A stretch of DNA of 64,000 nucleotides from Bryopsis sp. KO-2023. Lineage: Eukaryota > Chlorophyta > Ulvophyceae > Bryopsidales > Bryopsidaceae. Where the stretch lies: positions 6,572,001-6,636,000 of the forward strand of contig BSYQ01000002.1 in assembly GCA_030272585.1 (NCBI GenBank), written 5' to 3'. A model generated the notes under the pieces. It did not search any database and had not been told where the DNA came from. It saw only the letters and a list, made by a program, of their open reading frames with translations. Of this stretch, positions 5,889 to 50,411 are shown piece after piece. Positions within the stretch are counted from its first letter, which is position 1; each line of letters starts with the position of its first letter. The position numbers and the translations under genes are program-made.

Positions 5889-6059
5889 ACACCATCGGCA
5901 GGGTGCATCCGTGGTTCGAGAGGCTGTGCCATTGAATTTCATTGCAGTGATCTCCCTCAACGATGCTGTTATTGAATCAAAATTGCATGGAATTTTTTTA
6001 TGGTTGGGACTGAGGGTCAAGGAATTATCTTGATTTTTTTTTGATTTGATCCCACAACT

Positions 6060-8070: not shown

Positions 8071-8073
8071 ACC

Positions 8074-12385: not shown

Positions 12386-12819
12386 GGCTCAAGCTTAAAA
12401 AAAAAAAACAAGTGGTGCAAACAGAGACACACCCGGATGTTATTTGTCAGCGTTTTTCTGGGTCATCGTTAAACACACAAAAAAAACTTCTAATGTTTGA
12501 CATGAAAACGAGTTGACTAGCTAAAGCTAGGGCTAAGGTTTCCCCAATTATACTTAGGATATGTTTTGTGACTTACACTATTTGTTCAAGTAGAAGCACA
12601 ATAGCCTCTCGGTGTAGCACTCTAAAAGAACATTCTCTATCTGACGTTTCCCTAGTCAGGAGTAACTCTGTCTTTCAGCCCCCCGAGTTGCAAAAGGCTC
12701 TACAATCATAGAGAAGACCGGAACGTCGAATAGTCCATTCTGAAGGGCCAAGAGGGAATCTCGAAAGTCAGGAATCCCTGAACGCTCACCAAAAGTTCTA
12801 TTGCGTTTGTAGCTTTCGG

Positions 12820-15254: not shown

Positions 15255-16811
15255 TCAAACAAGACAATGCTCATCGGAGAAATCCCACTCCCAAATCTCC
15301 CCAAGACCTTTGTTGGCCACCAACTTTTCATCATCAACACATAACACTCTCATGCTTTGCATGTAATTGCTAATGGTCCCATAATCATTGTGGTTTTTAT
15401 CGTAGAGACAATCAAAACTTCGCAACTTTAAAACCAACTTCTCTTCGGGTTTTCTATACTCGTTTTCGTTGTGGTATTCATTTCTTGGAAGTGGAAGTGG
15501 GACGATATAATGGTGTACCAAGGGAAAACAGGATTTGTCGGTTGTGTCGGTCCGCGGTGGAAGATGAACGGCATTTTCTTTTTGAATGTCCTTTTTATTC
15601 TTCCTTTCGTTCTTTGCATTCAGATGTTTTTCGATGGGCTAATCCCAAGGATCTTTTTAGTAGGGTGCCATCGGGCAAATTAGCTTTAGTTATCAGCAAA
15701 ATGGCTTCAATACGTTCAGCAGGTTTACAATCCTAAGGTTTTTTTTTTTTGTTTTTTTTTTTGTTTTTTTTTTGTTTTTCTCTTTCTTTTCTTTCCTTTT
15801 TGTCTTTGTTCCAGCATCATAGAGGGTGATGGCTCTCTTTTGCTGTGGGTTGTAATTATGATTATGATTATGAAAACTTCGCAAACACTCGCCCTTTGTT
15901 AAATCCCATATTTTTATCGTTCCATCATAAGATCCGGTGAACATCCGACCTTCTTTAAGAACGACAGAGGTCACAGTATTTGTATGACCTCGAAACGTTT
16001 GCACGTGCTGACCGCTTTCAAAGTCCCACGAGCGAATGTTGCCATCAATAGCTGCACAAAAGATGAGTTCATCAGAAACAACTATTGCTCTCACTCCCTC
16101 TTTCTGTCCACGAATCACTCTGAGACAAACGTTTCTATCCAAGCTCCATATTCGAATAGTCTCATCCTCCGACCCACTGATCAAGAGATTGCCCGGTTGG
16201 GGCAATAGACAAGTAACTTTTTTTTCGTGACCTTGAAGGGATCTTTCATGGTCCCACACCCCTTTTCTCAAAATTTGAATATTCCCATCAATATCCCCAA
16301 AGGCCACATTCTCACCAAGGTCTGCAATCGAGAACATACCGGAATAGTTAATATGGACAGAAAAAAGCTTTGTCCATGTGGATTTATCCCATCCACACAA
16401 GTCACCTCTGTAATTCACAGTCAAAAGCACCCCATCCACGAAAGAGAGACACCACAACCAAACACCCTCCTCACAGTCAAAACAAAATTCTCTTCGATTA
16501 AGATCGAACACCGTGAACCCCTTGTAGCCACCCAAGGCAATCAAATGTTCTGTCTTGGCCCAACAATATATGTGACAACGATAAGTGCCATAATATTTTC
16601 GATCCTTGTGAACAATGGGCTCTATTGGCTGATGCAACCACGCACGCTCCAAGCCGATTTTTCTTTTGAAGTCTGACTCCTCCTTTGTGACTTCTCGCCA
16701 AGCTGTGGCCACACACGAGCATCTAGCAAGCGATCGAGCAGGAATCCCTCGAAGAATATCGACCAGGATATCCCCTGGCAAGTCCCATTCGATCGGAATA
16801 CTGTCGCTCAT
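15255..16811 (-). pseudogene. F-box/WD40 protein, split by a LINE insertion
   Basis: Start MSDSIPIEWDLPGD at 16811. An F-box (residues about 5-45, ending CSCVATAWREVTKEE) is followed by WD40 blades with GSEDETIRIWSLD and GSYDGTIKIWDLT motifs. Such proteins are substrate adaptors of SCF ubiquitin ligases. The frame runs to the last blade, then enters inserted DNA (15426-15872) and reads lysine-rich nonsense to 15693. The genuine C-terminus resumes beyond the insertion (RSFDCLYDKN...WEWDFSDEHCLV, stop at 15255), as shown by the intact relative at 58742-59794. A truncated product with a basic tail could still be made. Confidence 0.9.
15426..15872 (+). mobile_element. 5'-truncated LINE (non-LTR retrotransposon) fragment
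   Basis: Flanked by the 12-bp direct repeat AAAACTTCGCAA (15414-15425 and 15873-15884). In the + strand, 15485-15736 encodes RICRLCRSAVEDERHFLFEC, the zinc-knuckle C-terminus typical of LINE reverse transcriptases (C-x2-C...H-x4-C), ending in a stop. The 3' tail is T-rich and ends in ATTATG repeats directly before the target duplication. Length about 447 bp, so severely 5'-truncated. Confidence 0.88.
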
Positions 16812-17320
16812 GACCCTTCAAGTCGAAAAAACGATCAAATGGATCAATGGCTCCTCACCAAAAAAACGATGCTCTCTTTCTCAATTCACAATATCACAAG
16901 GTCAAACAGGCGGAAAATGAGACTTCAATCGCCTTGTCGAGCGTGCGCAAGTCTTTTCAGGCGAAAAAAGAGCGGTGGGGAAACCCAGCACCAGCAAAAG
17001 CAAAACAAGGCCAAGTCCCCCCCCCCCTCTCCCGCGTTGCCGGAAAAATCAAAAGGACGGCTAAAGCCGGGCGGGGAAACGAAAAAACGTTGGTCGAACG
17101 TCCTTAATATGACCACTAAGACCAAACTTGCAGTTCCAGTAACCCACTCTGCACTTGTCAAACCGTCCGCTCCGCTAAAAATGAGAGTGTAGACGAAAAA
17201 CCTACGGCTAAGAGGTAACGCCAAGCAAACCCACCTGCGTGAGTGAGATAGTTCGATATCAAAAAGGTTTCCGGCAGAGGGAGGGACTCGATCGTCCGAG
17301 AAATCTGTTAGTGGGCTGCG
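16812..17320. other. Junction between copies A and B; basic ORF of doubtful status
   Basis: A 354-bp open frame (16839-17192, +) encodes a Lys/Pro-rich peptide with no recognisable domain. No second copy supports it. The segment separates the F-box/WD40 gene from the inverted block and may include the rearrangement joint. Confidence 0.3.
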
Positions 17321-17949: not shown

Positions 17950-19930
17950 TATTGGCACTAAAAGGCAGAATCCCACTCTACACTCTACATTCACTTGTTA
18001 AGTTTCTCTTTCATATTTCTTCTTTTCCCTTATTAAGACAAGATACCCCCTCAGAAACTGAATGTTGAAAATCTTCTGTGGAATCGAAAAGTGATGGAAA
18101 AAAAACTCATTGGTGTGGCCTGGGTTGTCCCACCATAAACTCTACCTGCCAGGAAATCAGCCTTCATGTTAAGAAATATTGATTTTTCAATGGAACACCT
18201 CACTCTTATGAAATTCTCACTTCCAAAGGCTGAACCTGAGATTGATTTGAATTTTGTTTCGAAAATCATAAAAACTCAGATAGTGGGGAGCTGGACATGT
18301 TCTTTCAGTTCTTGATGTTTTTTTTCGGGTTGCAAAGAAAGGAAAAGAAAGAAGAAAACAGCTTGACTCTCTGATGCTGCGGGCTGTCCTTAGCGTGAAA
18401 CAGCAACAACATGAGCCCCGTCTCGATGGAAATCAGAAATTCCCAGAGGGCTTGATAGGTCAGGTTAGTTTCCACCCACCCATTCGCTTAGAAAAGAAAA
18501 AGAAAAGAAAAGTCAGCCCTCTAAAGGGAAGGCTTCCTTTTGGATGGGGGGAAATAAGGAGAAAAACAGTTGCAGAAAAATGTTGCCCATGACTTTTTTT
18601 TTTGTGGGTCAGCGACCCACAAATTATCAACATCTGCACCTGCAATAGAAAAGTCTTCGATTATATTTTTCAACTCTATTGCTCAAGATTCTGCATTGGG
18701 TTGTAGACAGGGGTTGTCACATCGGATCGATTTTCACCATTCTGGATGCTATGATCCAGAACAAGGTGAGGGAAAAAGGAAGCTTCAGAATTAGTAGAAA
18801 AGAAGCTTCGTTCATATTTTTAGAAAAAAAGGATAAAGGGATTCCTAGTGGGCAAGACTTTTTTCCTTCTCGAAATCCATTTCTTTTTTAAGTTCATGCT
18901 TGCAAGCTACTTTCACTTCTATGTGTTCCAGTGGACCCTTAAACAAAACAACGATGACTAAAAGGAATCCTTGAAAATGAAAAGAAGCCCAAATATATCA
19001 GAGTCGCTGGAATTCTTTTGAGTCCGATACCGTCAACTGGCTTTCAATTGAAACATTCACATGGACAGTGATGCGATTTTTTTTTTAATTCCTTCACATG
19101 TGGAACCCTTCTCTTTCTTTCTTTTCTTTTTTTTTTTTCTTCCTTGTTTTTTTCTCTGGATGTAGCTTCTGACATCCAGAAGACTGATTTTGCCAACCTC
19201 TCCCCCCTGAAAGGAAAGTTAAGAAGAACACAAAAAAAATCGGCGATGGTTGAATTTCTGGACTCTAGAAAAACCCAAGAGATTTTAAAAAAGGGATAGA
19301 CCCCCATGCACCTGGTAGCCCAAATGAAGCCGGAAAAAGATGAAGATTAAAAAACTCCTCCTGGTGGGAATAGGGTTCAAATGCCAATGGCTGCTTTCCC
19401 CTTCTCAGAAAAAAAATGTCAAAAAGGGACCTCAGTAGTGGATCAAGAATCGGGGCCAGTAGCAGCAAACTTGATTGTATTGTTTTTGTCACTCCCCTTT
19501 TAGATTATGAATGATTTCATATTTCGAAGCACTGGCAAATTTTTGGGGAGGGAAAAAGAGTGAGAGACTAATGGGTCAGTCACAGAAAGCGAAAAGTAGT
19601 GAGACATAATAGGGGGGAGTTGATTTGGTTTAAAACTCAGACTTGTGAATAAGGAATGTGGAAAATTCTTTCTTCTGTAGAGACAAGAAAAAAGGTGATA
19701 AAATTGGTTGAAACTTTTTTGTGGAAAGTTGGAGAGTTGATCAGTTGTACATAAGAACTCTAACTGCAGACTTCTGGAGAGTAAGAGAAAAAACTGTTCG
19801 TTGGCAGGATATATCCATCCTCTATATAGAGTGGGAAAGAAAATGAGTCGGACATGAGTGTGTGCAACAGAGCCAAATGCAGTGAACACCACCTGGCCAA
19901 CCCCCCCCCCTGAGTTGTGGGATCAAATAA
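17950..19930. repeat. Non-coding repeat block, copy B (inverted)
   Basis: Reverse-complement relative of 6060-8070 and 48340-50400. It contains the GTGGGTCAGCGACCCAC-like short palindrome (18604-18620), also present in the other copies, and the CCACACCAA-type end (about 18112-18170). More diverged than A versus C. No gene seen. Confidence 0.65.
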
Positions 19931-20084
19931 AAAAATAATTCTGGATCATTCCTTTGCCCTTAGTCGCAACCATAAAATAATTCCATGCAATTTTGATTCA
20001 ACAGCAGCATCGTTGAGGGAGATCAATGCAGTGAAATTCAATGTCACAGCCTCTCAAACGACGGATGCACCCTGCCGATGGTGT

Positions 20085-20169
20085 GTCAAAACAGAAGGAT
20101 TCGAACCCTCGACGGGTCGTGCTTGAAACACAGAAGTCGACACCTTGTACATGAAGACACGGTCCTGAC
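20085..20169 (-). other. tRNA-like sequence, copy B
   Basis: Minus-strand counterpart of 5809-5888. Both ends can pair over 7 bp, the T-arm GAGGG-TTCGAAT-CCTTC folds better than in copy A, and the anticodon-like loop TTTCAAG is unchanged. The D-arm region differs between copies, so it is unlikely to be a working tRNA. Confidence 0.4.
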
Positions 20170-20634
20170 TCCGATCGATTGGCCTCCTCTGGGTTAAAAC
20201 ACCCTTCTCGCAAAGACATCGACAACACCCACATGCTTGTCTGCGACTGCTCGTGGCCTTCTAATTGCCGAACAAACGTGACAACCGATTTGTGCATCAT
20301 ATTTTCCTCCACACCCGATCTGTGTAGACTTGTAATGGCGCGATCGACGTCATCTGTGGCCTCAACGACAACTATTTTACGCGATCGATGCTATGGGAAC
20401 CCCAGTGCCCAACTCGTGCGAGGACATTTGATGGCTTTCGGATCCACTTGTTGCCTTTCTTGTCTGGATCGACCTAGATTAGTATGCGCCGCCATGTTAC
20501 CTCGCCTTCCCTCCTGAACTCCTAACTTCCTCGCAACTGATTGCACGGTTGTAACCGTTTCTGCGGCGTGTGTGTCCTCATATCTTTGGCTTTGACTTTT
20601 TCAATTCCGAGAGCGTCGGTGCACTCTTTCGAAC

Positions 20635-22690
20635 ATGGCTCACCCTCTCATAGTTTTATCGTGTCCCTCTTCTCGTTCCGTGTCGAGAGCCCCTTCTTCA
20701 CGCCGACAGATGTTGTCGACGGCCGAATTTCGACGCCCTAACAGGACATTCTCTTTTAGGAATGCTCGTGGGCTAAGGACTAATTCGGCGCCCACTCCTT
20801 ACGACGATATTGTGTCGTATGGGGGAGAAGTCCCCAAAGAGTGCGACGGCAGGAGCTGGTTCTCTGACACGCTACTTGAGAATGGAGATAGGTTAAGAAT
20901 GGTGCGGATAGAGTGCACGCTACGATTGGTGGTGTTCGTTTCATTCTGCGTTTTCTGACGATCGTTTTGTGTAGCAGATTGGCGACGTCCTTCGGAAATG
21001 GTGCGATCTCCGACGCCCTCCACAGTGAGTTGTGGTACTGAACCAGTGATGGAAATGCTTAAGGTGCTGTGGTTTGTTTCCAACTGGGATCCATATCACT
21101 GGAGACGTGGTGTGTGTGCAGGGACCTGGCGTCCAAAGAAACACTATCGCCAGCTTTATTCTTCACCTCCATGGCAGCAGGTAGTTTGGATCCAATGAGG
21201 ATGTCTCTCTGCAAGCCAAAAAGGCCTTTCTTTCCATTTGATGATGATGTCGTTTTTTTCTACAGTCGTGGCGTCCTGTAGAGTGTGCGAACAAAACGGC
21301 ATTCTCTCGCACTTTTTGCCCGCCCTGAGTGTTCCAGCGGGTGGGACTGTTGGCACTCTCGGCTCTTTCGCACTGGCACTGATGCTGGCGTTGAGAGTGA
21401 GCGCCATGTACACTCGATGGCGTGAGGCGCACATCGCTTGGACCGTATTGCTCAACCGATCCACAGACGTCACAAAACTCGTACGTGCAAATCGAGCTCA
21501 GACACTATGTTTTCTGTGGAGATTGCTCGCAAGGCATTGTGGTGTGAAAAAAAACTCCACGCCGTTCAATAATCGTTTTATGGATATTCAGGCGAAGAAG
21601 TCTATGGAGGATGGCAAAGAGAAAGAGCAGTTCGGTAAGTGGATCATCGCCTTCGCTCACAGCCTCCGTATTCACCTGGCCGAAGGCAAAGAAGTGAAAT
21701 ATAAGGCTAAGAGAGTCAAGAACTTTTTTCCTTTGGATATCATATTGACCGACAAAGAGCTCGCGAGCCTGGTGAGACATGAGGTCCAGCTTCATCTCCA
21801 TCAGGGCTCAGTTTTTTGAAAGTGTCGTTTCCTTGTGAAAAGCTGTGATTCTGTTACGCAATACTTTGGATGCTTGTGATTGCAGATGAGCTGCGAGAAT
21901 CAACCAAACTTCTGCCTTCAGGCAGCTTCGAAATCAGTAAATTCGTCAAACATGCCGCTCAAGGCGTCCAAGAGCATGGACCGCAACATCGCGTTTTTCG
22001 CTGATATGGTCGACCGATGCGAAAGACTCAAAAAACAACCTGCCCTAGTCGAGTTCTCAAGGTACCAGCGCACCCCACTGTCTTCTTTAAGAAGTTACAA
22101 GTTTTGAATAAACAAAACAATCGACATGAACTCTTCGTCTTTCGCCGTTTTGGTTGTTCCTGTGCCTCCCCTGTGTGGCCGTGGAGAAAAAGACAGTTCC
22201 GATTGAATTTTGTGCGTGTTTTCAGGCATGCAACGTGCTTCTTGGAAGTCTGGTTGAGTCTTCTCCCAGTGCTCGTTGCAAACTCCTGCAAAGCTTGGAC
22301 GATACCGGGAATGTTCTTCCTTTCCCTCGCTGTAATGAGTGTTGAAGCATTCGCCATTCATCTGGAAAAGCCGTTCAATGTTTTGCCCCTGGAATCGATA
22401 TGCCAGAATATCACTGCTGGAGTGCAAGACTTATTCCACCACGACCAACACGAAAGCGTGAACACCTCTGAAATCTCTTTCCGCCGGGAAACACAACGGG
22501 GTGGTGTTAGAAGGCGCCGTTCCAATGCAAAGCCCTTTCTTGTTTTCCGACGCCCGTCCAAGAGTGAGAGTGGGAGACCTAACATTTGGAATAGACTGTA
22601 TTGTGAAAGCGGCCCTATTGTCTGTGAGTTTCATTTGTTGGGAAACAGCTTCGACTGTCGACGGCCAGAACCGACTTGGACAATGTGAGT
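20635..22690 (+). CDS. Bestrophin-type channel, copy B (best-preserved)
   Basis: Four core exons are legible. About 21260-21477 encodes VPAGGTVGTLGSFALALMLA and RWREAHIAWTVLLNRSTDV, ending at donor GTACGT. About 21593-21765 follows acceptor ATTCAG and encodes GKWIIAFAHSLRIHLAEGK...LTDKELASL. About 21886-22060 encodes the CERLKKQP helix. From 22227, after a TTTTCAG acceptor, come two membrane segments and EKPFNVLPLESICQNI. These are the canonical landmarks of bestrophin/UPF0187 anion channels, membrane proteins that form pentamers. The C-terminal tail is basic (RRRRSNAKPF). No frameshift was seen in these exons, unlike copy A. The N-terminal exon(s) around 20635-20960 are uncertain. Confidence 0.68.
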
Positions 22691-22699
22691 ACAATTCAA

Positions 22700-23320
22700 A
22701 AACAGTTTTTCAAGGAGAATAGGTGTGGGGTTATCAGCCGATGCACGAAAACGTATGGGGTGCGCTTGATCTAGGTTGAAAACTTTTTTATTTTTGTTTG
22801 AGGGTTTGAGTTGCTTGGCAGGGCCTGCACTCGATGGAATTACTTACTGAGGAGCAGATGAATGGTGATATTTCTAGACCCAGGTAGCGATGGTTTGATT
22901 TCTTTTCGTGGTGCTGTCGTTTTTGTTTCCGGATATACCATGCACATTTTAAAAGATCTGAGAGGATCAAGAATTTTAAATTCATTTTTTCTTCCTCTTC
23001 TTTTTTTTTCCCTCCAAGAGTGTTCACATCTACTTGTATTTCATGGACCATCACCCCACAGCCAAACCTACATCTTTGATCTCAAAATGAACACACGCAT
23101 TGTGGCCACAAGAATTGCCAAGGCCAATATATTGTAGATATATTCAGGTCTCCGATTTTTTTTTCAAGGAAGGTCTGCAGCTGCTGCACCGACACCTTCT
23201 CTAACAATCCCTCATTCTCCAAGTGAAATTCCATGCAGAGATTTCTACAGCATTCGATTGACCCTTGCTCTTTCAATGGGTACCCTCTCTTTCATGCCTC
23301 ATAGATCCACATACAGTGTG
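22700..23320. other. Spacer between bestrophin and F-box copy B
   Basis: Inverted counterpart of 2632-3375. Non-coding; nothing further recognised. Confidence 0.5.
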
Positions 23321-23324
23321 TCTA

Positions 23325-24090
23325 TCATAAAGGGTCTTTCCTCTGATGACTCAATTTCGCTGAAAATGCAGAGTCGATTGTCGCCGACTTCTCCACACCT
23401 CGCGTTTGTTTTTCAGGCAGCGTTTGCTGGGCCTGATCATCGTGCTGGCTCCCGGTTTTTGCCAGGTGCTTTATACGCTTAGCGGTCAATCTTGGATCGA
23501 TTCCTTCACCTCTACAGCTGGTTTCTGGGTTTTCTGGGTTTGTCCACTGAAGGACCCGCTGGTCGCGCCTATCGATCAGACAAAGCACCAGCGTCGCGAT
23601 CTCTGGCGCCCACTCTTCGAAATCTAAATCTGACACGACCCGATGAACCTCCGGGATATGGACCGTTATCCTTGCCGCATTCCAATCCTTCGCAACACAA
23701 GAGCACCTTGCTAGATCTATGCGTCGAAGTGGAGCGAAAATTTGATGAAGGAGCTCTTCTGGGAGGTCCCACGCAATCCTGGGCTTCTCGATGGTGGCTG
23801 TCGCCAGACAACCAGAGCGAAAAGAGTTGGCAGAATCGCAGGGCGTTTAGGATACGTTCCCCATTGTTAGGGGCTACATGTGCAAATTCCGGTCGAGTTT
23901 CACCCAACAGAAAGCCCTCAAACCCCAACTTGCATCGGAAAAGTACTCCCCACTTGGAGGGTTTTCCCCCTGACGACAAGCATACCTATGGCAGCTTCGA
24001 TCGTTCGCCTTCTCATGATGAGTTCCTGTTGAGCTTCTTTCGTGGGACTGTTCTCTTTACCCTGCCCTCTGCTCGTTTCGCCATTGATTG
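23325..24090 (-). pseudogene. F-box protein, copy B (7-bp deletion in exon 1)
   Basis: Exon 2 (23325-23797) encodes the F-box and the DLDFEEWAPEIATLVLCL segment, and is open to the same stop as copy C. The intron is 23798-23985 (donor ATAG|GTATGC). In exon 1 the stretch coding for LNDWEEL has lost 7 bp relative to copy C, so the frame from any upstream ATG reaches a stop before the splice site. Confidence 0.72.
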
Positions 24091-24159: not shown

Positions 24160-25490
24160 GTCAAGTCAAGCTCTTCACGAACCAAATCCGTGATGTGTGT
24201 TCCCAAGGGTGAACAAACAAACAAACATCAAATTACATTATCATAATGTAATCTTGTTGGTTGCACTTTCGAGCGTTTTTCGTGTGTGCTGCAGTCGTCC
24301 CATTGGAAATTCTACAGAATAAATCCCTCTCAACGAAGCGATTTTCTGACTGAAGTCTCTGAAGTTGGCTGAACTCCTCTGGTAAAACTGAAACCAAAAA
24401 CTGCAAATTGTCTTGTGGTGTCGACTGTCTGTCCCAGGTGAGTGTTTCGAGTTCCCTGCACTCTTTTCTTTTTTTAAACACCTCTATTTTATGTTCCTCA
24501 CTTCGATTGACCGCTCTTTCTGACGACTTTTGAAAAAATTGTTCCCACCTTCCACTGTTCTTCTTTGATTTGCTACTGGGGGAGCTCGGGGGGGGGGAAA
24601 ATCCGGTGTTGGACAGATTTGGACAGGTATATTCAAATGAGAATCCGTGTTGGTGTGCTACCCTGTGGACTAATTTTATCCTGATGAGTGCAAAAGTCGT
24701 AGGGAGTGACAGTGTTTTTAGCTTTACTTTTCGGGGTAGCAAAAAAAAAAAGGTCTCAAGCAGTTTTTCTACAAAACAAATGGAATTTTGCAAGAAGATG
24801 TTGTCCTGCAAGGAAACCATAACATGTTTTGAGAATTCTTCAAAATTCTTTGTTGTAATCACAATCCGACAGATCTGGGGAAAAGCAAGGAACGGAGAAT
24901 GTACAATTGAATGTTCCAACATGGGAAAAGCTCCCAGAAAGCCTGGTTTTCCTTATTTTTGTTGTTTCGATTTGTAGCATGATGAACAACAGCCCTGCAC
25001 ACATCATGTGGGACGTTGGATTGCACTCGCACACACGCCTCCAGACGCCGCACTGTTCTGTACAGCAAAAACGCGCGATGTTTCCCAGACCCCCTTGCAC
25101 AATACATAGAACGTCGCACAGACCCACAACAATCCCACACATGAATTCGCACACCCCAGCCACAATCGTGCACACATGCCTCTCAACGGCGCACAACTCT
25201 GTGCGGTGCTCTGGGAAGATGTGCGCGTTTTTCCCATAGCAGATAACGCCAAACAGAAAGACCTGCACGAGCCCTGCACCGGCTCTGTTTGAGTACAGTT
25301 TCCATACTATGGTAGCGAGACCTAGTAGTAGGTCTTGCCCCAATCCAGAGCCACCAACAGACACAGATGACGAGGCTGCATCTGTGGGTCAATGACAGAA
25401 ATACAGAAATGGCGGTCACTACAAAGACAGTGTCGTCGATGTGACCGCCATCTTTGGGTCGGTTTCGGATCACATTCTGGAACCTAAGGA
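24160..25490. other. Unresolved region with a 229-codon minus-strand frame
   Basis: A 690-bp open frame (24233-24922, minus) encodes a peptide with a Ser/Pro-rich centre and charged C-terminal half; no domain, splice support or duplicate was found. 24990-25240 is unusually rich in GCAC/CACA words. I cannot assign a function and the frame could be accidental. Confidence 0.25.
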
Positions 25491-25493
25491 GAT

Positions 25494-25694
25494 ATGGCAT
25501 TTTTTCGCGCGTTGCGGAAAGCTTACGCGCGAGCGGCACGAAGGCACCCATCGGCGGTGCAACCTGTGCGTCCGGCGGTTTGGAGTTCCGGCGAAGCCCT
25601 GGAAACAATTCGCTGTCCAGATCGCGCAAAAGACGTCCAAAACGATCCTCAGTTCAATGGGGATCCAAGAGATGTCCTGATCAGGGAGTTCATG
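25494..25694 (+). CDS. Chimeric motor gene exon 1: end of kinesin motor and neck
   Basis: Residues 35-67 read IRCPDRAKDVQNDPQ...DPRDVLIREFM, matching the kinesin pattern [27 protein letters not shown] at the motor/neck junction of kinesin-2-like proteins. It ends in phase 0 at donor ATG|GTTTGT. In a normal kinesin this exon lies downstream of the switch exons, but here it precedes them. The ATG at 25494 is only the first in frame; the exon could extend further 5'. Confidence 0.65.
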
Positions 25695-25786
25695 GTTTGT
25701 TGAAAACCACCTTTGGGGTAAAAACGAACGCAGATGTCTTCTCTTTTTTTTTTTTTTTCAGAGGATGTTGTTGTATTTTTTTGCAG

Positions 25787-26199
25787 GTGTACCAGGATAT
25801 GGCAAGATCGCATTCCATTGCCAAAATCATCATGGAAACCAGGAAAACAATGCACCAAATCAAGAACAGCGATGGGAAACAAGATTGTGTCCAAACACCA
25901 GCCAAAGATGGCGAAAGCCACATCCAAGGCGGGAAATCCAATGTTGTGGATTTGGCAGGAAGGCAATCAAATTCAGGGGCTACAGGTGATACAATTTCGG
26001 TGCTTCCATTTCAATGAAACAATGCAATCTGATATCTATCCCTATAATTTGCGATTGGATGATTGCAGGTCATCATCTATCAAAAGAAGGGATCACGATC
26101 GCTGTTTCCTTGGTGGCCCTCGGAAGTGTGATTTCTGCTTTGGTGGGGAAATCAGACCACATTCCTTACAGAGACACCAACCTCGCCAGACTCCTTCAG
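25787..26199 (+). CDS. Chimeric motor gene exons 2-3: kinesin switch I to alpha-5 region
   Basis: Exon 2 (25787-25985) and exon 3 (26069-26199) join in phase 1. They encode [13 protein letters not shown] (kinesin switch I SSRSHSIF-I-IE), then [20 protein letters not shown] (switch II VGKLN-VDLAGSER---TGATG), then [15 protein letters not shown] and [14 protein letters not shown], a textbook kinesin loop 12/alpha-5 motif. The essential switch II glutamate (DLAGSE) is missing, reading DLAGRQ, and SSRSHS has become MARSHS. Kinesin origin is clear; ATPase activity is improbable. Confidence 0.75.
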
Positions 26200-26397
26200 G
26201 TGTTGAGAAAACATACTGATTTTTTGAGAAAATTGTTGCGTGTTTCCCCCTCCCCCCTGGGAATTCAAGACTTGGAGAATTCCAGGTTTGGTCGAGGGAA
26301 AAGATGATCAAACACTTTGATCCCTGTTTCAAAGCGCCTCCTATGCTTTGATTGTGTGTCAATGTTGGCCAACTAAATTTTTTTTTCAATCTTCAAG

Positions 26398-26745
26398 GTG
26401 GAGGATCTGGATGTGGCATCGAAAGGAGAAAGGAGAAAGGTGTTTGTCATCTGCGTGGATGACATACACATGCCTCAAAGAGACGCATGTGTCAGCCAGC
26501 CTTTGATGATTGAAGGCTGGGACAGTCAACAGGCCCCCTGTCAATTCAGGGAACTTCTCGATACCCACTTCGACACAAGCATGGGGCGTCAAAGGGCTAA
26601 CAAAAATCCATGGAGTCAGGAACCCAGCCAAGCTTTATGCAGTCGACTCATCAAAGAAGATGATCAGGGCTTGTTCCATCAACGGGGGAATCTCCTCTTG
26701 GAAGAGCACTCCTTCACAAACGCCTTGATCGAGGCTTCTGAGGAG
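26398..26745 (+). CDS. Chimeric motor gene exon 4: dynein heavy-chain AAA3-like
   Basis: Begins in phase 0 after TTCAAG. RRKVFVICVDDIHMPQ resembles the dynein heavy-chain Walker B block of AAA3 (FVDDLNMP), followed by a DTHFDTSMG segment like the family's sensor strand (-T-F--AMG). The usual YG-Q-P-ELLRQ stretch is altered to VSQPLMIEGWD. It ends in phase 0 at GAG|GTGGGC and is joined in frame to the kinesin-derived exon 3. Confidence 0.6.
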
Positions 26746-26897
26746 GTGGGCAGCACATTCGAACTTATCAATTTTGAACATTTTGTTCATTTTCTTGTTT
26801 TCTTTTTTAAAATTCCTGTATTCACTTACTTCCCAGAACCCACATTGTCGCATGATGCCAATGCTAACAATCAAAGTCTTGCCAAAAAAAAAAACAG

Positions 26898-27183
26898 GTC
26901 CAGGAACTCAGGGCCATAGTCAGCGAAGGAAAAAAAGAGGTGGAAGAAAGGAGAAAAGCCTTTGCTCAGAAGCAACAAAAGGTTGACGAAGCTAGAAGAA
27001 TGATCATGGATGTCCAAGCTGCTTTGGATGCGGTGGATGATGCTTGGAGAAATATTTCCAGGGATGATGTGATCGAGGTCAAGTCGTTCCCGAAGCCCCC
27101 GACGCCCGCAAAGCTGACCATGACAGCGCTGGGTATATTGATAAATCTGAAGCCGGAGCGGGTCCCACACCCCAAAAAAATTG
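26898..27183 (+). CDS. Chimeric motor gene exon 5: dynein stalk coiled coil
   Basis: Charged coiled coil (EGKKEVEERRKAFAQKQQKV) leading to AALDAVDDAWRNISRDDVIE, then VKSFPKPP and ALGILINLKP. This is the dynein stalk sequence (ALE-LNK-DI-E-KS--KPP---V--AV-ILL---P) directly before the microtubule-binding domain. Phase 0 in, phase 1 out. Confidence 0.78.
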
Positions 27184-27472
27184 GTGAGGCGAATTTGTGG
27201 AGGAATTCGAGTTTTCTCAAATTACAGTTGTATATATTTTGGTATTGAATTTCGAGGCAAAAGAAATTGGCAAGTGCATCCCTTCTTATGGAATATTTTC
27301 TTGGCTGACACAAAGATTTCTATGACATGTCCCGCTAATGTTCACTTGGGCATTATCACCCGAAGCAGAAAAAAAAACAGCCCGTTGACAATCCACAGAA
27401 ATCGCTACTTGTGAATAAATAGTCATATATACATTTTCAGCTTTTGGTATAATTTGAAGAGTGCCCTTGCAG

Positions 27473-27714
27473 GTGTCGTGACTTTGGACTACTGGGGCGC
27501 CACCAAGAAGCTCGTCAACAACCCCACAAAGTTCCTCGAACTGTTGTGGGGTTTTGACAAGGAGACAATCAGCGAGACCACCATGCGAAGACTGAAGCCA
27601 TTTATAGATGGGAAGAGATTCGGCAATGACAATCTTCTGCGGGTGTCGGAATCGTGTGCACCAATTGGCGCGTGGATCAGAGCTGTATATGCGCACCACA
27701 TGGCCTGCCTTCAG
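27473..27714 (+). CDS. Chimeric motor gene exon 6: dynein microtubule-binding domain
   Basis: TLDYWGATKKLVNNPTKFLE matches the family DYW---KKLL-D--F---L. KETISETTMRRLKPFI and ACE-like SESCAPIGAWIRAVYAH match I----M-K----Y and the (A)C--L--WV-AM-VY block. This is the best-preserved part of the locus. Splice phase (1) agrees with exon 5. Confidence 0.82.
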
Positions 27715-27852
27715 GTAAATTCAACCCACACATTGACTATTTTCCACCAAGTAAAGCTCTTTGATTGTCCATTCTTCTTCACTATGAATAAACATGGATG
27801 TTCTGTTTGAATTTTGAGATATTTCAAGTGAATTTGTGGTGCAAAAAAATAG

Positions 27853-28122
27853 GCTGAAAACAGCCCATTTGAACAGGCTGCCCCGGAGAAAGCCGAGGCT
27901 GAGGTGGCTGAAGAAAAGAAGGGGCTGGAAAGGGTGGAGGGAGAACTTCGTTGCGCAAAGGAGCTTTTGAAACGGGCGGTGGAAAGAAAAGATGCCCTGG
28001 AAAGGCAAAGAATATTGATGCTGCCTGGGGGGACGGGAAAAATGGAAACCACCATGGATGTGGAGGAAGCGAAACAATGTGTGGTGTTGAACTGCTACGA
28101 TGGACTGGAGTTTTCACCAATG
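27853..28122 (+). CDS. Chimeric motor gene exon 7: coiled coil fused to dynein AAA1 P-loop
   Basis: A heptad-rich segment (EKAEAEVAEEKKGLERVEGE...) is followed in frame by LPGGTGKMETTMDV and KQCVVLNCYDGLEF. The dynein AAA1 consensus is GPAGTGKTETTKDL and KQCVVFNCSDGLDY. The Walker A threonine is replaced by Met (GKM). AAA1 normally lies more than a thousand residues before the stalk, so the order is reversed here. Confidence 0.78.
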
Positions 28123-28197
28123 GTAAGTTCCGGAACAAAGCTGTTGAAGTAATGAGTAAATTTTGCTGGTTGCTGAATGAGTGTTGTGTTCGTTTAG

Positions 28198-28695
28198 GTT
28201 GAATTCTTTGAGAGCCAAGCATCTTCTGATGCTTGCTTCAACGGGTTCGGCCGACGCCTTCGGGCGTAATTCGAATAGTACCTGCCACAGGCATACATCC
28301 CCAAACTAAGACTTTTTTGCCTGTGGCCGGGGACGTTGAGCTACAACAGAGAATCCATCATTTGAGACAAGTACGTGTTTGTAAACCCAAGAATAAAACA
28401 AATGCCACAGGTTTTTTGTTGTGTGAAATGATATTTTTGGTGTGGGTTGTGTGGGTGGATTCCTTTTTGATGGTTTGTTTTTGAGTTGGATTTGTTTGGA
28501 CGCTTTTGCGTAGAAAAATACAGCAATGTATGGATGTTAAACAAGGTTGTTGAAACATGTGTATTTCATAAATGTTTCTGCAGGAAAGAGACAATTTATC
28601 AGCTGCTACCCAAACAGGCACTCGACGGAGGGTCAAAAAAACAGGAGCTGGTTGTCGAAGGAGAGGAGCTCAAAATTTTGATGGATCCCAACTGA
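28198..28695 (+). pseudogene. Dynein AAA1 continuation, broken
   Basis: 28198-28370 starts in phase and encodes EFFESQASSDACFNGFGRR, corresponding to AAA1 GLAQSGAWACFDEFNRI with Walker B Asp-Glu lost. It then hits a stop near 28266; the homology appears to continue in another frame (GVIRIVPATGI). After an intron, 28584-28695 encodes LVVEGEELKILMDPN, like AAA1 FEG-EL-LNPTC, and stops. The chimeric frame therefore does not continue to a full motor. Confidence 0.6.
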
Positions 28696-28926
28696 GAGCA
28701 GATGAGAGGCTTGTTCGATTAATCGATCAATATTGAGGTATGATTTAAATCAGTCAGGGGAGAAAAGAAAAGAAGAAGAAAGGGAAAGCACATGTTGCCC
28801 AGAATTCGAAGAGGGGGGTGGGGGTGTTGAAAATTATTGATATTCTAATGGGATCAATTGATTGAATGACTGACTGATCAATCCATCAATCTTTCAGATG
28901 TGTAAGCTGACGAGCTTTTTCAAGAA

Positions 28927-29012
28927 ATGGACACACAAAAACAAGCAGGAATCTCAAAAAAAGAATGGAGAAATCTCATTGACTCAGGACAGATGGTCGG
29001 AATCCAAGGTAG
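28927..29012 (+). other. Possible exon, no homology
   Basis: Sequence after a CTTTCAG acceptor (28900) is open to a GTAGGC donor near 29010 and is very Lys/Gln-rich. Its place in the same transcript is an inference from position only. Confidence 0.25.
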
Positions 29013-29522
29013 GCTGGAGGTCAATCTGCCGTTCTCTCTGTTTCCTCTTTCTCAATTTCTTTGTCCTTTTGTGTTGATTATCATATTTTGTAGCTATGTG
29101 TATAGTTCATAAATATCAAGGCAAGCTTTGTTGGTCTTTTCGTAATTGTTTTGAAGTGAATAATAAAGGTTTTTCGCTTTCCCTGTTCACTCGCTTCGAG
29201 TTATTTGGAAAAGAAGAACAAAGTGAAAATAGAAAAAGACTGATAAAAAAACAAGAGAGGCTCATTTTGTTCTTCTTTGTTGGTCGCTTCATTCATTTTT
29301 TCATTTCATGTGTTGAATGGTCATGTAATGCAAAATATTGAATAAAATCAACAAAGGGAGTATTGAAACGGGGTTGTTTTTTGTTTTTTCGTTTGCCCTC
29401 AGGTAAGGGAATTGGATCAGAACAATCGAAATATCAAGTCTTCAACATCAAGAAGAGAGCTGGAGGTGGAACTCATGGAGTTGCAGCCTCCAGGAGGACA
29501 GGAAACAGTGTGACAAGAAGTT

Positions 29523-29975
29523 ATGGAGAATGGAAAAAAGTGTGACAAGGAAGTTCGACATCAAGAGGGGCTGAGGAGAATGTTTGTTGAGCTACTTGGA
29601 GATAGAGAGCTGGAGTATGGATGTTATGTTTACAAAAAAAGGCTGGGAGGTAAATTGTGTGTATTGGAAACAAGGCTGGGCGCCCTGTGTGATCAGGCCA
29701 AGCGGTTGGAGGAGAGTCTTGACGGCTCATTTCTGGAGGGGCTGTGCATGTCATCGGATCAAAATCAGCAGCCGAGCGGGTCACATCAATCTTCCCACAA
29801 CAAGCAAGGTGAGAGAATCAAATTGTGTTTTATTTCTTCGTTAACAGCAATAGAGAGGATTGCCGCAAACAAAAAAGACGTCCAATTCTTGTGTGTACAG
29901 GGGACAGGGATCGGGAAAAAGCTTTGTAGATTGCTTTTCACGCAATCTGCATGTTCACTTGTGGGGTTGAATTGA
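29523..29975 (+). other. Coiled-coil-like segment, duplicated at 33078; possible P-loop at its end
   Basis: Open frame encoding LEYGCYVYKKRLGGKLCVLE and GALCDQAKRLEESLDGS. A frameshifted direct copy lies at 33078-33325. After a TACAG at 29896-29900 comes QGTGIGKKLCRLL, which could be a relic AAA P-loop like dynein AAA4 (GVGGSGKQSL-RL), but that alignment is short. Family not established. Confidence 0.35.
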
Positions 29976-30578
29976 TGGGATTCTGAGGGAATGCCAGGAG
30001 GGATTGAAAGAAAGGACTTTTGTGGGAAGAAAAAGGAGAGTGTGAATCCTGTGGGGGATGCATAGTTCATGCCTTTCATACATTCTGGGGAGATTGGCAC
30101 TTCGTCATGGCTCCAGGAAACAAAGACAGGGATGATCCATCCGATGAAAAGGAAACAAGTCGAAACACTTCCGACTCTATTTTCAACAGAGTGTCAAAAG
30201 AAAGTGAGTTGAATCTGACCAAAAAAACAGTAACATGACAAGCTTATGAGAGCTTTTTTTTCTCTCGTAAAACTCATCCAGTTTTTGGAAAGGAGAGGGG
30301 GGCTATGCAAGTGCCTTCTTCTGTTTTGACCAATCGTTCATCTTTTTCTTCATTTTTTCGAATGATGACATTTTTTCATATCCAACAACTCCCTTGTTAC
30401 AAACGAAAGATGGATATATGTTCTGTCGATTGGTCCATGTTACATGAATCCAGTAATAAACAAACCCTTAATGATATGTTTTTCTAAAATGAATAGAAGT
30501 TCTTATACATGTGGGAAGAACTGTTGAGTCCAAATATTTCCCTTTAGGATATTACAGCCTGTCATTTTATGTTTTCAG

Positions 30579-30803
30579 GGGGGCGAAAAGAACAGTGCGG
30601 TTGGATCGACGCTGATTAATCAAGATCCTTCCAGGTGGCAGTCCATTCTCACCACCATCAAAACCAGGGAAAATCTGACACAGCATGGAAAAGAAGCCGA
30701 CCCACAAACGCCAGCAAATCATGGCGCAATTGAAGAAACAAAAACTCTCGTAAAGATTGGCGAGATTGCAAGAGCGGAAGAATCAAAAGTCATTTTCTCT
30801 TGA
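30579..30803 (+). other. Candidate exon, unrecognised
   Basis: Open from a TTTTCAG acceptor to a TGA stop, encoding GEKNSAVGSTLINQDPSRWQ and an acidic-basic C-terminus. Plausible last exon of a gene on the + strand; no family recognised. Confidence 0.35.
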
Positions 30804-30845: not shown

Positions 30846-31063
30846 ATGAGTCACGCGGCGTCAATGCTCAATCAATTCATTTTCAAGATCCGATCAGGGC
30901 CCAACGCTCAAGGAATCTTCGACAACGCGCTCGTCCTTCTGAGGAATCCAAGTGCTTTGAAGTTTTCTTTTGGGATGGTTGGGTTCGCTCATACAGCACC
31001 GCGGATACGCGCGTCGGTAGCATTCCTCCATCCGGTCGATGCGATACATGCTGTGGGAGAAAG
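30846..31063 (+). other. Candidate first exon, unrecognised
   Basis: accATGAGTCACG gives a good start context; the frame runs to a strong donor (AAA|GTGAGT). It encodes about 70 residues starting MSHAASMLNQFIF. It precedes the kinesin N-terminal exon at 31377 but shows no kinesin similarity. Confidence 0.35.
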
Positions 31064-31376
31064 TGAGTAACAAAAATCAATAACAAGCGTGAAGGTAGGT
31101 CGTCTCTCGGACGTCTGGCGAAAGAAAAGCACCGCGAATGAATGAAATTTTCCCTTTTCGTTCGGTTTGTGGTGCGTTCTATTTCCCAGGGGATTGATTT
31201 GATTGGTGGGTTTCACCCTCTTTTTGTCCACGCATAGTAGTTGGGTTGGCGACCCACAGAATCATGTATTTTTGGTCCAAGATGTAAAAAACCCTAGGAA
31301 AATGGCTGCCAAAATGCTTGTTTTTTTTTCTCGATTCTTTTTCTCGAACCAAGGACTAATTATCTTTTTGTCCCAG

Positions 31377-31459
31377 ATGGTAGTGCGCTGTTGTCCATTG
31401 AATTCACAAGGAATTCAAGATGGATCGCTGAAATGGATTGCTCTGGTGGACAAAGCCAG
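31377..31459 (+). CDS. Kinesin N-terminal exon fragment
   Basis: After a TTTGTCCCAG acceptor the exon reads MVVRCCPLNSQGIQDGSLKW, matching the first strand of kinesin motors (V-VVRCRPLN--E...). It ends at GCCAG|GTCTGC. In an intact kinesin it would be at the very start, yet it lies about 5.5 kb downstream of the switch II exon. Confidence 0.65.
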
Positions 31460-31863
31460 GTCTGCTTCTCTTTTCCTTCCTGCTTAATTTTTAATATGAT
31501 AGTTTGAAAAAGTCTTCCCCTTTTTTTTCTTTTTCTCGTTCTTTTTTTTGTGAATTTTAGGGACCATCCGTGTTCTGAGAAAATCTCAACACATCCATGC
31601 TGAGTTGTTTTCCCATTGCAGGGCGAAAAATCGATCTCTTTTTGGTTCTATTCTGTCATATTATCTCGCTTTCTTTTTACTTGGACCTTCGATTGTAGAT
31701 CAACAGGAGATGGTGTGTTCTTATCCTGAAGAAAGACTTACCCCTCTTCCCCACTTTTAACTCAATTGTGGTTTAACTGTAGCGTTGAAAATCTGATCCT
31801 TCGATTACAGGTTAAATACTTGCGGATGCAGCAGCTATCGTTTTTTGGGAGTCAAGTTTTTTG

Positions 31864-31941
31864 GCACTTATTGGCCAAAATGTTTTAAATAAGCGTTGAA
31901 TCAATGGGGACCCCAAAGATGCCATGCTCAGAGAATTCCAG
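31864..31941 (+). pseudogene. Second kinesin neck fragment
   Basis: The frame encodes IGQNVLNKR, a TGA, then INGDPKDAMLREFQ before a GTTTGA donor, aligning with [23 protein letters not shown]. The TGA sits where CGA (Arg) is expected. It matches the neck homology of exon 1 (25494-25694), so at least two kinesin copies contributed to the locus. Confidence 0.65.
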
Positions 31942-33077
31942 GTTTGATCACAGAGAAAAAAGGATCAGGCGGGGCTGATTCGGCCCCGTTTGTTTTTTTC
32001 TTGGAAACAAATCTTGTGTCTCTCCCTCTCCCTCTCTCTTCTCCTTCTTTGGAGAGTGGGAATTTCTGTGTGGAGTCACTGGTTCTATTTTTCTTTCTGT
32101 TGATCCGAAAATCTCAGGAAAAAGTTGCTTAGCTTTTTTTTCCCTGAAAAAAAAATCCATGTATTGCATCATCATATCATGTATGTTTTCTTTCTTTTTT
32201 TTGGGGGGGTGGGGGGGTGGGGGGTAGGGTAGTCACAACACATATAGCTGAGAATTCTGTAGGGTCCTTTTCTATTCCCTGGATGGTGTTTTTTATCACT
32301 CGATTTCCCGGTAACGTGGAATGTGTTTTGAAAGACTCTACTCAATTGCTTTTGTTTTTGCCATACTGTGTCCCTCCCCGGATACGTGTGAGAACAATGA
32401 TTGAATTTTGGCTCCTTTTTGTTTTTGAACCGCAGAACTTTCTTGCTCAGGTCGGTGCAATGAAGTCCTGCTTTGATGGAAAATGGGAGCCCTCGAAGAG
32501 CTCCTCCAGCCGTATCGGGTTCAATTTTTGAACCTTCATGACAAGAAATCACTTCACAGCGGGACAAAGTGAACGAAAATCAGAAGGAAGGACCCAAAAA
32601 TATCATGTGAAAGAACAATAAAACCCGGAAAACTAACTTTGAAGAAAGGTAAAATCAAATTCGATGTGTTCGGTGCGTCCTGATTGATTTTTATTTTATT
32701 TTTTTTTTTGGGGGGGGGGCAGTTGTCTTTTCCAAAAGCCCTTTGAAAACAGATGCAAGCTTTCATCTCGCCTCTTCGTTTCCCCCCCTTTTTTCCCGTT
32801 GTATGCTTGTATATTTCTGAACCTTGGTGAAAATGAGTGAAAAAATACGTATACAGTTCCGTTTTCTTTTCTTGTTCTCTCGAGAATGCCCACACAGATG
32901 GAAGATTTTCCCTCTTCTTTTTCGCTGTTTTTTTTTCCTTCAAGGAATATCAGTCATGGGCCTGTTTTTTTCTTTCCTTTCTTTTGTTTTTAGATTAAAT
33001 ATCAAAGACGAGGTTCACGCGTGGGACCTTGGATCGACTGCGATCGAAGTAAAAGAGGATCGGGAAAAATGTGACGA
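31942..33077. other. Unresolved region
   Basis: T-rich and G-run-rich sequence with short open segments (for example 32446-32530 after a GCTCAG) and no recognisable homology. Likely introns or intergenic DNA. Confidence 0.4.
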
Positions 33078-33325
33078 GTAGTGAAAGAGGATGGGAAAAA
33101 GTGTGAAAACAAAATTTGACATCCAGAGGAGCTGAGGAAAACAATGGCCGGGCTACTCAAGGACAGAGAGCTGGAGTACGGATGTTATTTGTGCAAGAAA
33201 AAGGCTGAAAGACAAATCGTGTGTCTTGGAAACCGTGCTGGGAGCCCTGTGTGATCAGGCCAAGCGGTTGGAGGAGAGTCTTGACGGTTCATCTCTGGAG
33301 GGGGCTGTGCATGTCATCCGATCGA
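33078..33325. repeat. Direct duplicate of 29525-29760
   Basis: About 240 bp alignable to 29525-29760, ending in the same GCCCTGTGTGATCAGGCCAAG stretch and GTGCATGTCATC. The coding frame of the earlier copy is broken here after LEYGCYLCKKKA, so this copy is the decayed one. Confidence 0.75.
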
Positions 33326-33363
33326 AAGGATTCAATATATATATATATATTGACTGGACACCT

Positions 33364-33540
33364 CGGATGTAGCGTACGATGGTTTTGGAGAAATTACGTA
33401 TGCCGGCTGGAACGTAGCGTACGATGGTTTTGGGTGAAATATCGCACATTGGCTGGAATGTAACGTACGATCTATTGAGGGAAACGTCGATATCGCGCTA
33501 CCACTGTGCGATATCGCAGTGGGTGGAGTTGTGTCGCACA
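33364..33540. repeat. GTACGAT-containing tandem repeat
   Basis: Three diverging units of about 47 bp, each beginning gta(g/a)cgtacgat, follow an (AT)n run at 33338-33352. Further on are ATATCGC / GCGATAT words and GTGTCGCACATTG. No coding frame. The TACGAT theme recurs at 35690-35910. Confidence 0.7.
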
Positions 33541-35100
33541 TTGTTTACATGGACACATATGATAATAGCAAGAATTCAATGATATCCAGGAGTCGAACTT
33601 GGTTGGACTGCCACCTGGCATATCATTTGTACAGTTTGCTTTTTTTCAAATACTCTGGAACTCACACAAGAAAAGATGCACTGCCCCCTAAGAATTCACA
33701 TGCATTTGTCTGAACCTAGTCAAGAAGGCTGTCTATATGCAGCCAGCATTGCCTCCCAGTGTTCATTGGAAGTTGTGGTGGCACAGATGGCTCTTGCTTT
33801 CTTGCAGTCCACTTCCTTAAAAGGGAACAGGGCAGGCTCTGTCAATAGTCAATACCATCCGATAGATTTGGGTTGTCCACACCAAAAAAAAATTGAATAC
33901 CTTTACCTCAACCTCCAGAGTCCCTTCGACATCAGAGTTGCCGGGTATCCACCTGAGAGCTGTGTACATTTGCGGTTCTGGTGATCCCACCCACACGCAC
34001 ACACTTCCCCAAATTTTTTTATCAACTGGTGCAGCAGCCTCGCCACACCACTCAGCAAAACAGTGCATTCATAATGTCCTTGACTCCCAAATACTGGAAA
34101 CAAAGAAAGGAAAATACAACTGTAAGGTTCACACAAAAAGAGCATATGCCGCCAAGAAAACTCACCCAGTTTTTGTTGCATTGTGTCAAGCACACGCCTT
34201 TCTCTCCCTCACTCCTCTTTTTTTTTTTGCAGAAGTCTGCGATGCCTGCTTCCCTTGTTTTCCCTTCTATCCCAAACCTCAGCAACCTCTCCTCGAATTC
34301 TTGACTACCCAACACCTTCGCCTACCCACAAAAAATAAGGATGCTCCTCATTCCTTGTGTCAGGGTGCAACATAATTCAAACAAGCAAATCAAAACGAAA
34401 AAAATCACCCAGGAACTCTTAAACAACCCTTCCCAGATTTTGAACTATGAGGAAAACATCTGTGCACTGTGTAGACTTGCCTGATTGGAGCAGAAGTTTG
34501 GGAATCTCGAAATAAACTAATTCAGCAAGAATAAACAACAATGCGATGGATCACTCTTTTGCAATAGAATGAAAAACAAGAGGAAGCCCCACCTTGCTGT
34601 CCAGCTTCCATAATACGGCGGACAATCTGAGTTGCTGGGAAACCAAATATATTTCCTTTGCCAAGTCCTAACCTACACTTCGCAAAAATTCCTCTCTGTA
34701 TCCATCAGCAGCAAACTCATGAAAAGTACTGGGAAAATCTGCCTTTCTTGCCCAGCTCGGTGGCCTACTTTTACATCCAACAAGTTTTCTATCTCCAGGT
34801 GGAGTTTATCCCTGATTGAATCAATACACTTACCAACCATCATAACCCCAAGACCACACCAAAGGGCACTGTAGACAAAACAGTCATCATTTTTCAAAGC
34901 ACAGCAATTATCGCCAACCCTGACCTGGGACCTGGGATTTCGCAGTTTCGTGACGAAACAAACCCAGCAAAGCAACTCATATCAGCACTGGGAAATTCGT
35001 ACAGGAGCGGCTTAAACCAGGTAAGACAGGGCACGGACGGGTGCGTCCCCTGGCCATACCTCACGCGGTCGCGTTTGTTTTTCTTGTTTTTTTTTTCTAC
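33541..35100. other. Unresolved region with minus-strand coding-like segments
   Basis: On the minus strand 34673-34975 encodes CGLGVMMVGKCIDSIRDKLH and 33817-34068 encodes APVDKKIWGSVCVWVGSPEP. Both look protein-like but I cannot name a family or build a splice model. Possibly one minus-strand gene. Confidence 0.3.
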
Positions 35101-50400: not shown

Positions 50401-50411
50401 ATCCAGCAACC

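Follow-up and report, generated by a model that had tools for sequence, protein, structure and literature searches.

Chimeric pseudogenes and young chimeric genes can arise from segmental duplication, in which partial copies of neighbouring genes are joined and re-spliced, and capture by transposons is a further known route to such chimeras. Here we describe a locus that can be compared with this general class, the gene of the hypothetical protein BSKO_02773 in Bryopsis sp. KO-2023, which has been described as a coenocytic ulvophycean green alga. The gene lies in a stretch of 64,000 nucleotides (C2:6572001–6636000; the window hereafter) of the 91.1 Mb, 28-contig assembly, and coordinates given without a contig refer to the window. 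In BSKO_02773, a kinesin-2 gene supplied exons 1–3, and exons 4–8 stem from the DHC2 family of axonemal dyneins; neither part keeps the order of its parent. Compared with other chimeras formed by segmental duplication, both sources here are microtubule motors and the long frame is open. With a probability of about three in four, we read the locus as the relic of an amplified DHC2–kinesin-2 neighbour pair that was scrambled by deletions. Our searches of open-licence full texts turned up no paper that names a fusion or chimera of kinesin and dynein.

The closest described systems are the two source types themselves. The kinesin-2 gene BSKO_05759 (KIF3B / OSM-3 type) is the source of exons 1–3 and of the debris downstream, with splice sites in common. 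Compared with it, the chimera has the neck first, a truncated switch II and neither P-loop nor motor domain; instead of a complete motor domain, only donor amino acids ~208–321 and ~336–377 are present, in permuted order. The DHC2 / DNAH1-type inner-arm dynein heavy chain at C1:2826–2834 kb represents the family from which exons 4–8 come. Rather than a ring of six AAA units in which both Walker motifs of AAA1 are intact, the chimera has only pieces of AAA3, the stalk with its microtubule-binding domain (MTBD), and a piece of AAA1 that follows the stalk and reads GKM for GKT and CFNGF for CFDEF. Because the kinesin P-loop is absent and the AAA1 Walker A and B motifs are altered, the product, if it is made, is most likely not a motor, as judged from its sequence.

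Composition of BSKO_02773

Splicing and translation of the + strand gave a model of eight GT–AG exons with 582 codons, no internal stop and TAA at 28267–28269. An earlier reading of the letters alone (the original prediction) had placed exon ends at 25694, 25985, 26199, 26745, 27183, 27714 and 28122 and had described phase-compatible junctions in one long frame to about 28266. All of these ends are exact GT donors, AG acceptors precede 25787, 26069, 26398, 26898, 27473, 27853 and 28198, and the phases are compatible at all seven junctions. The spliced product matches NCBI BSKO_02773 letter for letter, so the deposited annotation arrived at the same protein. Its exons are:

25494–25694, + strand: exon 1, ATG and about 24 unrecognised residues, then the end of the kinesin-2 motor and the neck (donor amino acids ~336–377 of BSKO_05759)
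25787–25985, + strand: exon 2, kinesin-2 region from switch I through switch II (donor amino acids ~208–279), 68% DNA identity to C5:262229–262427
26069–26199, + strand: exon 3, kinesin-2 segment which we take to be alpha4-L12-alpha5 (donor amino acids 279–321), 83% DNA identity to C5:261880–262030
26398–26745, + strand: exon 4, three DHC2-family pieces joined in frame, namely an exon start (VEDLDVAS), the AAA3 Walker B region and a later segment (W..EEH)
26898–27183, + strand: exon 5, helix CC1 of the dynein stalk and on to the start of the MTBD, 11 amino acids shorter than in C1 DHC2, both edges at donor splice sites
27473–27714, + strand: exon 6, dynein MTBD, 42% amino acid identity to C1 DHC2, both edges at donor splice sites
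27853–28122, + strand: exon 7, stalk helix CC2 (12 amino acids shorter than in C1 DHC2) joined internally to a P-loop that aligns with that of DHC2 AAA1, where GTGKT has become GTGKM
28198–28269, + strand: exon 8, Walker B region of AAA1, where CFDEF has become CFNGF, and stop codon TAA

The permuted order of kinesin and dynein parts in the original prediction stands, but the incomplete stalk that it implied does not: CC2 opens the exon at 27853–28122, ahead of the AAA1 P-loop, so that CC1, MTBD and CC2 are collinear in exons 5–7, where they align to DHC2 and are predicted to fold. What had been called a dynein AAA3 exon does hold the AAA3 Walker B region, but exon 4 as a whole consists of three dynein pieces, at positions 3312–3341, 4310–4347 plus 4399–4484, and 4999–5101 of the C1 DHC2 gene (blastn and translations), with the intervening sequence gone. 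The claimed catalytic losses in AAA1 were borne out, but DLAGRQ in place of DLAGSERQ reflects a two-residue deletion in exon 2, which trims DLAGSE to DLAG, and not a substitution. Exon 1, previously labelled a kinesin neck, matches a neck only after its first ~24 residues.

A profile search of the exon translations, which the original prediction had called for, matched kinesin and dynein models in exons 2–7. Only exon 3 exceeded the curated Pfam cut-off (kinesin, 4.6e-10); below it were the PF12777 stalk (6.6e-4 in exon 5 and 1.4e-4 in exon 6), AAA_6 (7.1e-4 in exon 7), AAA_7 (0.0085 in exon 4) and kinesin (0.038 in exon 2), and neither exon 1 nor exon 8 alone gave a Pfam match. When the whole protein was compared with the PDB, it matched both dynein DHC2 (3.5e-48) and the kinesin KIF3B (3.1e-23). 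Taken together, the kinesin and dynein homology of the product exceeds chance. BSKO_02773 alone among the 59 hits to the chimera (7,994 candidates scored) carries dynein domains, and none of the others combines the two kinds; the dynein part, used as a protein query, matched BSKO_02773 alone (best ~8,000 candidates scored).

Source genes

The kinesin descent of the chimera is evident from the exon 3 profile match and from the 68–83% DNA identity of exons 2 and 3 to adjacent exons of BSKO_05759 at C5:255–266 kb, a gene whose best PDB match is KIF3B (2.3e-146). The 5′ end of exon 2 falls within its donor exon, and the DNA match of exon 3 extends into the introns at both edges. Exon 1 aligns with the neck exon of the same gene, the next after these donor exons, at 50% amino acid identity over 42 residues, and it ends at the splice site of that exon. 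Across the seven junctions, donor splice sites coincide with 11 of 14 exon ends as read by eye from one printout, with the exceptions of the start of exon 2, the end of exon 4 and the start of exon 7.

The dynein gene of this genome that best matches the stalk, MTBD and AAA3 pieces lies at C1:2826–2834 kb, and its own stalk is that of DHC2 (8.4e-126 to Chlamydomonas DHC2 versus 2.6e-84 to the next PDB sequence, DNAH1). The AAA1 piece reaches its highest identity with this gene (63% over a shorter stretch at C1:2833 kb) and has an intron position in common with it. Genome searches scored the best candidates only, and copy counts given here are therefore lower bounds. In a tree of the MTBD (14 rows of 19 tried, five being dropped as too short or without a match), the chimera groups with C1 DHC2 and with five C5 and three C14 copies at a support of 91/91, on a long branch of 0.92 compared with 0.068 for C1 DHC2. 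A 4-amino-acid shortening of CC1 is common to the chimera and all eight C5 and C14 copies and is not seen in C1, C13, C1:5297 kb or C11 in an approximate coil alignment; the gap also occurs in a partial C4 row, at that row's exon start. The dynein part thus probably derives from the DHC2-like copies on C5 and C14: this shared shortening makes direct descent from C1 DHC2 less likely, although the MTBD tree does not single out one sister.

The mosaic beyond the annotated gene

The extent given in the original prediction, 25494–28266, is that of the annotated gene, but the mosaic itself runs on past 28.27 kb to about 33.3 kb with further scrambled kinesin-2 pieces:

28579–29490, + strand: pieces shared with C13:1881–1885 kb (28579–29062 at 67% and 29376–29490 at 75%); open reading frames (ORFs) tested gave no convincing Pfam match
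29494–29764, + strand: first copy of a direct duplicate of ~270 bp, 81% identical to the second copy, no Pfam match
30123–30217, + strand: second kinesin set, a portion of the exon that encodes donor amino acids 88–133, beginning past the P-loop (amino acids 108–133), 81% DNA identity to the C5 kinesin gene with an amino acid match
30566–30724, + strand: second kinesin set, donor amino acids ~195–252, 78–80% DNA identity with an amino acid match
30900–31815, + strand: 5′ end of the kinesin-2 gene, donor gene positions 285–519, 767–1076 and 1276–1306 in order, including the first coding exons and placed after later exons
31876–31968, + strand: kinesin neck exon for a second time, 61% amino acid identity, 82% DNA identity over 31877–31948, one stop within the exon
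33055–33327, + strand: the ~270-bp direct duplicate again, 81% identical to the first copy

A further stop lies just beyond the donor exon end of the second neck copy. The kinesin debris at 30.1–32.0 kb was detected only through comparison with the C5 gene, and a Pfam scan of 10 ORFs at 28.4–33.4 kb gave no kinesin, dynein or other convincing match (best E-value 0.078). Separately, one piece of the ~270-bp duplicate recurs at C5:6223 kb, and the kinesin-2 5′ segment at 31125–31821 recurs at four loci (C8:3771, C16:989, C2:7012 and C10:553 kb), all but one of them within 10 kb of a dynein AAA1 match.

Related dynein–kinesin loci

We read four stretches elsewhere in the genome, picked since both kinds of hit lay there. 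In all four, kinesin-2 sequence comes after a DHC2-like copy, and the two share a strand. At C5:284–280.6 kb, a DHC2-like copy without a stalk lies ~14 kb upstream of the kinesin-2 gene itself. In the other three (C5:333.8–341.5, C5:557–564.5 and C2:7005.5–7014.5 kb), pieces of kinesin-2 follow the dynein copy; one 42-bp kinesin piece is inverted in the C2 stretch, and the C5:334 kb stretch has a piece from the kinesin 5′ end after a later piece. We also read ~3.2 kb at each of eight DHC2-like loci with a stalk, five of them on C5 and three on C14; kinesin sequence lies downstream in three, and none was found within range in the remaining five. The stalk and kinesin units at C5:560 kb and C5:508 kb are 80–86% identical, which indicates that the compound itself was copied.

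The compounds at C5:334, C5:508, C5:557 and C2:7006 kb resemble the window locus in having the same two source families on the same strand with internal deletions. They differ from it in that dynein comes before kinesin and the pieces stand mostly in donor order, and the kinesin parts at C5:508, C5:557 and C2:7006 kb contain stops. None of the other compound loci that we read is as scrambled as the window copy. On a map of C5, inverted pairs are arranged about a centre near 360 kb, the two arms compared being 97.6% identical over 2.8 kb. As a side observation, C5:255–570 kb is rich in partial dynein and kinesin copies and may resemble an ampliconic or poorly recombining region.

Codon constraint and predicted structure

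Changes in the kinesin-derived exons were assigned to branches by use of a C16 kinesin-2 outgroup, which covered 108 of 150 aligned codons of exons 1–3 and is itself diverged at third positions, so that the rates are rough. On the copy branch, changes at codon positions 1, 2 and 3 amounted to 19/95, 20/102 and 17/44 (0.20, 0.20 and 0.39), versus 1/77, 0/82 and 13/40 (0.01, 0.00 and 0.33) on the donor branch. From this pattern, constraint on the kinesin-derived codons is strongly relaxed, though its absence is not established. Two pieces of the downstream debris showed a similar ratio (5/30, 4/32 and 6/22; p = 0.20), with too few changes to separate them from either extreme. For exons 5 and 6, the chimera branch changed at rates of 0.32–0.35, 0.19–0.27 and 0.39–0.49 at positions 1, 2 and 3 when set against five reference copies.

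AlphaFold2, run with 27 alignment rows that included dynein rows, gave BSKO_02773 a mean pLDDT confidence score of 61. Within residues ~281–525 (CC1, MTBD and CC2), most ten-residue blocks scored 88–95, with 74 at 471–480 and 73 at 521–530, while residues 18–252 and 529–582 were mostly below 50; only the dynein stalk and MTBD are thus predicted to fold. The top Foldseek match was the human inner-arm dynein d stalk (8i3j, 3.7e-13) with a root-mean-square deviation (rmsd) of 9.7, and the DNAH7 MTBD solved on microtubules (6rza) was matched with a target TM score of 0.81 and an rmsd of 2.5. Since dynein rows were present in the alignment, the predicted dynein fold is a matter of compatibility rather than proof. 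If the protein is expressed, the modelled stalk might bind microtubules.

Origin of the locus

The partial parental copies, lost catalytic motifs and relaxed constraint described above are those of a relic of duplication. Its history could have begun on contig C5 with a DHC2-family axonemal dynein copy lying ahead of the kinesin-2 gene on the same strand. Repeated copying of genomic DNA with its introns would have multiplied this pair, or parts of it, on C5 and carried it to C2, and the C2 copy may have come to hold several partial copies of kinesin and dynein in head-to-tail order. Deletions, both inside these copies and between them, would then have left a kinesin neck, kinesin switches, a dynein stalk, dynein AAA1 and more kinesin. 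Such tandem copies and deletions would account for the permuted parental order, for the presence of two partial sets of kinesin pieces, for the fusion of exons and for the splice sites that survive: the order is non-parental because the parts would come from successive copies and not from a purposeful fusion, and a single 582-amino-acid frame can be read because the donor splice sites mostly survived. The genome thereby shows what appear to be successive stages towards a long chimeric frame, from a neighbouring pair through copied pairs to a scrambled pair, and relics of motor genes such as this one, which may have no function, could come to be annotated as genes. The retained donor splice sites and some intron edges rule out an origin by retrocopy. 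Two separate capture events are unneeded, since both sources stand in line on C5.

Several observations weigh against this account. The sequence 25494–28269, as spliced, has no stop or frameshift, and the indels and joins within the chimera exons preserve the frame. Over 466 homologous codons there are 0 stops, whereas drift at the rates of positions 1 and 2 would be expected to give 12.1, and 0 of 4000 simulations were stop-free. In exons 1–3, positions 1 and 2 change less than position 3 (p = 0.010), which is why constraint is called relaxed rather than demonstrably absent. In the MTBD, 7/19 conserved sites changed versus 41/58 variable ones (kept 12/19 versus 17/58; p = 0.013, one of several comparisons). 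The near-equal shortening of CC1 (−11) and CC2 (−12) relative to C1 DHC2 is what a folded hairpin would need, and it may be chance. On the side of the sources, the ~24 N-terminal residues of exon 1 have no recognised kinesin match, the dynein exons were unmatched in a whole-genome DNA search (a local short-word comparison with C1 did match), and for the AAA1 piece the genes at C8:4431, C1:5291 and C13:1395 kb, all of which read through without an intron at the site in question, beat C1 DHC2 by E-value. With regard to the frame, the stalk exon pieces are also stop-free in all five C5 and C14 copies tested, and part of the openness may therefore predate the scramble; gene prediction, too, may favour open exons.

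The original prediction had left the choice between a fusion and a graveyard of motor exons. The graveyard is preferred because of the downstream debris, the sister compound loci on C5 and C2 and the relaxed kinesin constraint, and the locus is probably a relic. It is unlikely, though worth weighing, that BSKO_02773 is instead a genuine young chimeric gene whose translated, non-motor protein would bind microtubules through an orphan dynein stalk, with the kinesin and AAA residues as disordered tails. The unbroken frame, the confinement of blocks with pLDDT ≥88 to residues ~281–520, both Foldseek matches, the nearly matched helix shortening and the better retention of conserved MTBD sites all speak for it, but conserved sites were kept no better in CC1 (8/18 versus 25/72 variable sites, p = 0.59) or in the kinesin part (65/96 versus 20/37, p = 0.16), exon 3 and the exon 4 segment E4b change about equally at positions 1 and 2 and at position 3, and similar debris 2–4 kb away carries a stop. 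The strongly relaxed kinesin codons and the long MTBD branch also count against such a gene, as do the absence of this domain combination from all other proteins among the 59 hits and the dynein rows fed to the prediction, which partly build in the fold. Were the frame translated, a dynein stalk could exist without its motor. Slightly less likely again is a more specific version, in which the protein would be a headless dynein, a free stalk–MTBD hairpin from the scrambled pair that was selected as a non-motor binder of microtubules, perhaps of the axoneme; the C5 and C2 set would then be a fast-evolving, motor-derived protein family amplified in one giant-celled alga.

Capture and shuffling of motor exons by a transposon (Helitron or Pack-type) would explain intron-bearing fragments of two genes in one orientation, and dispersed repeats do flank the mosaic on both sides. 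We consider it improbable, given that the flanking repeats sit outside the mosaic, that only short inverted repeats were found within 18–36 kb and that no shared ends were noticed among the compound copies, none of which were compared end by end; moreover, a DHC2-like copy and kinesin-2 already stand in line at C5:284–255 kb, which makes capture unneeded. The original prediction had also raised the worry of an assembly chimera at 26.2–26.4 kb, where two unrelated gene families meet and unrelated reads might have been joined. This is hardly credible and we reject it: an artefact would be expected to have near-identical donor flanks, but the identities to donors in the same assembly are 68–84% for kinesin and about 68–90%, over short stretches, for dynein. 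Such divergence (~10–32% in DNA), with no closer place found in the whole-genome DNA search, speaks against misassembly, and several other loci carry the same gene pair.

Flanking repeats and duplications

The mosaic is bounded by repeated sequence on either side:

19502–24064, + strand: left-bounding repeated segment, copies mostly 80–95% identical, all on C2 among the best 40 of 153 candidates
33367–34500, + strand: right-bounding dispersed repeat, running to the end of the tested stretch, longest copies 80–85% identical on C2, C4 and C6

More diverged or shorter copies of the right-bounding repeat occur on C2, C3, C4, C5, C7, C9 and C13. The left-bounding segment contains an ORF at 22005–22685 with a Bestrophin_2 match (2.1e-9) and is followed by another repeat at 24257–24783. 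Between that repeat and the gene, a short perfect inverted repeat (ATGGCGGTCAC / GTGACCGCCAT, identified by eye) lies at 25409–25451, immediately 5′ of exon 1.

Larger duplications are also present in the window. Segments 2534–7580 and 18407–23422, the latter overlapping the left-bounding repeat, form an inverted duplicate at 85% identity, and a direct segmental duplication of ~9 kb flanks the mosaic (6007–14805 and 48360–57143; 91% over 6.7 kb and 82% over 2.1 kb), with HSP70-like ORFs at 12712–13485 and 55040–55879. ORFs with WD40 repeats at 15696–16817 (− strand) and 58643–59791 (+ strand, with an F-box match) are 76% identical in DNA over 0.9 kb.

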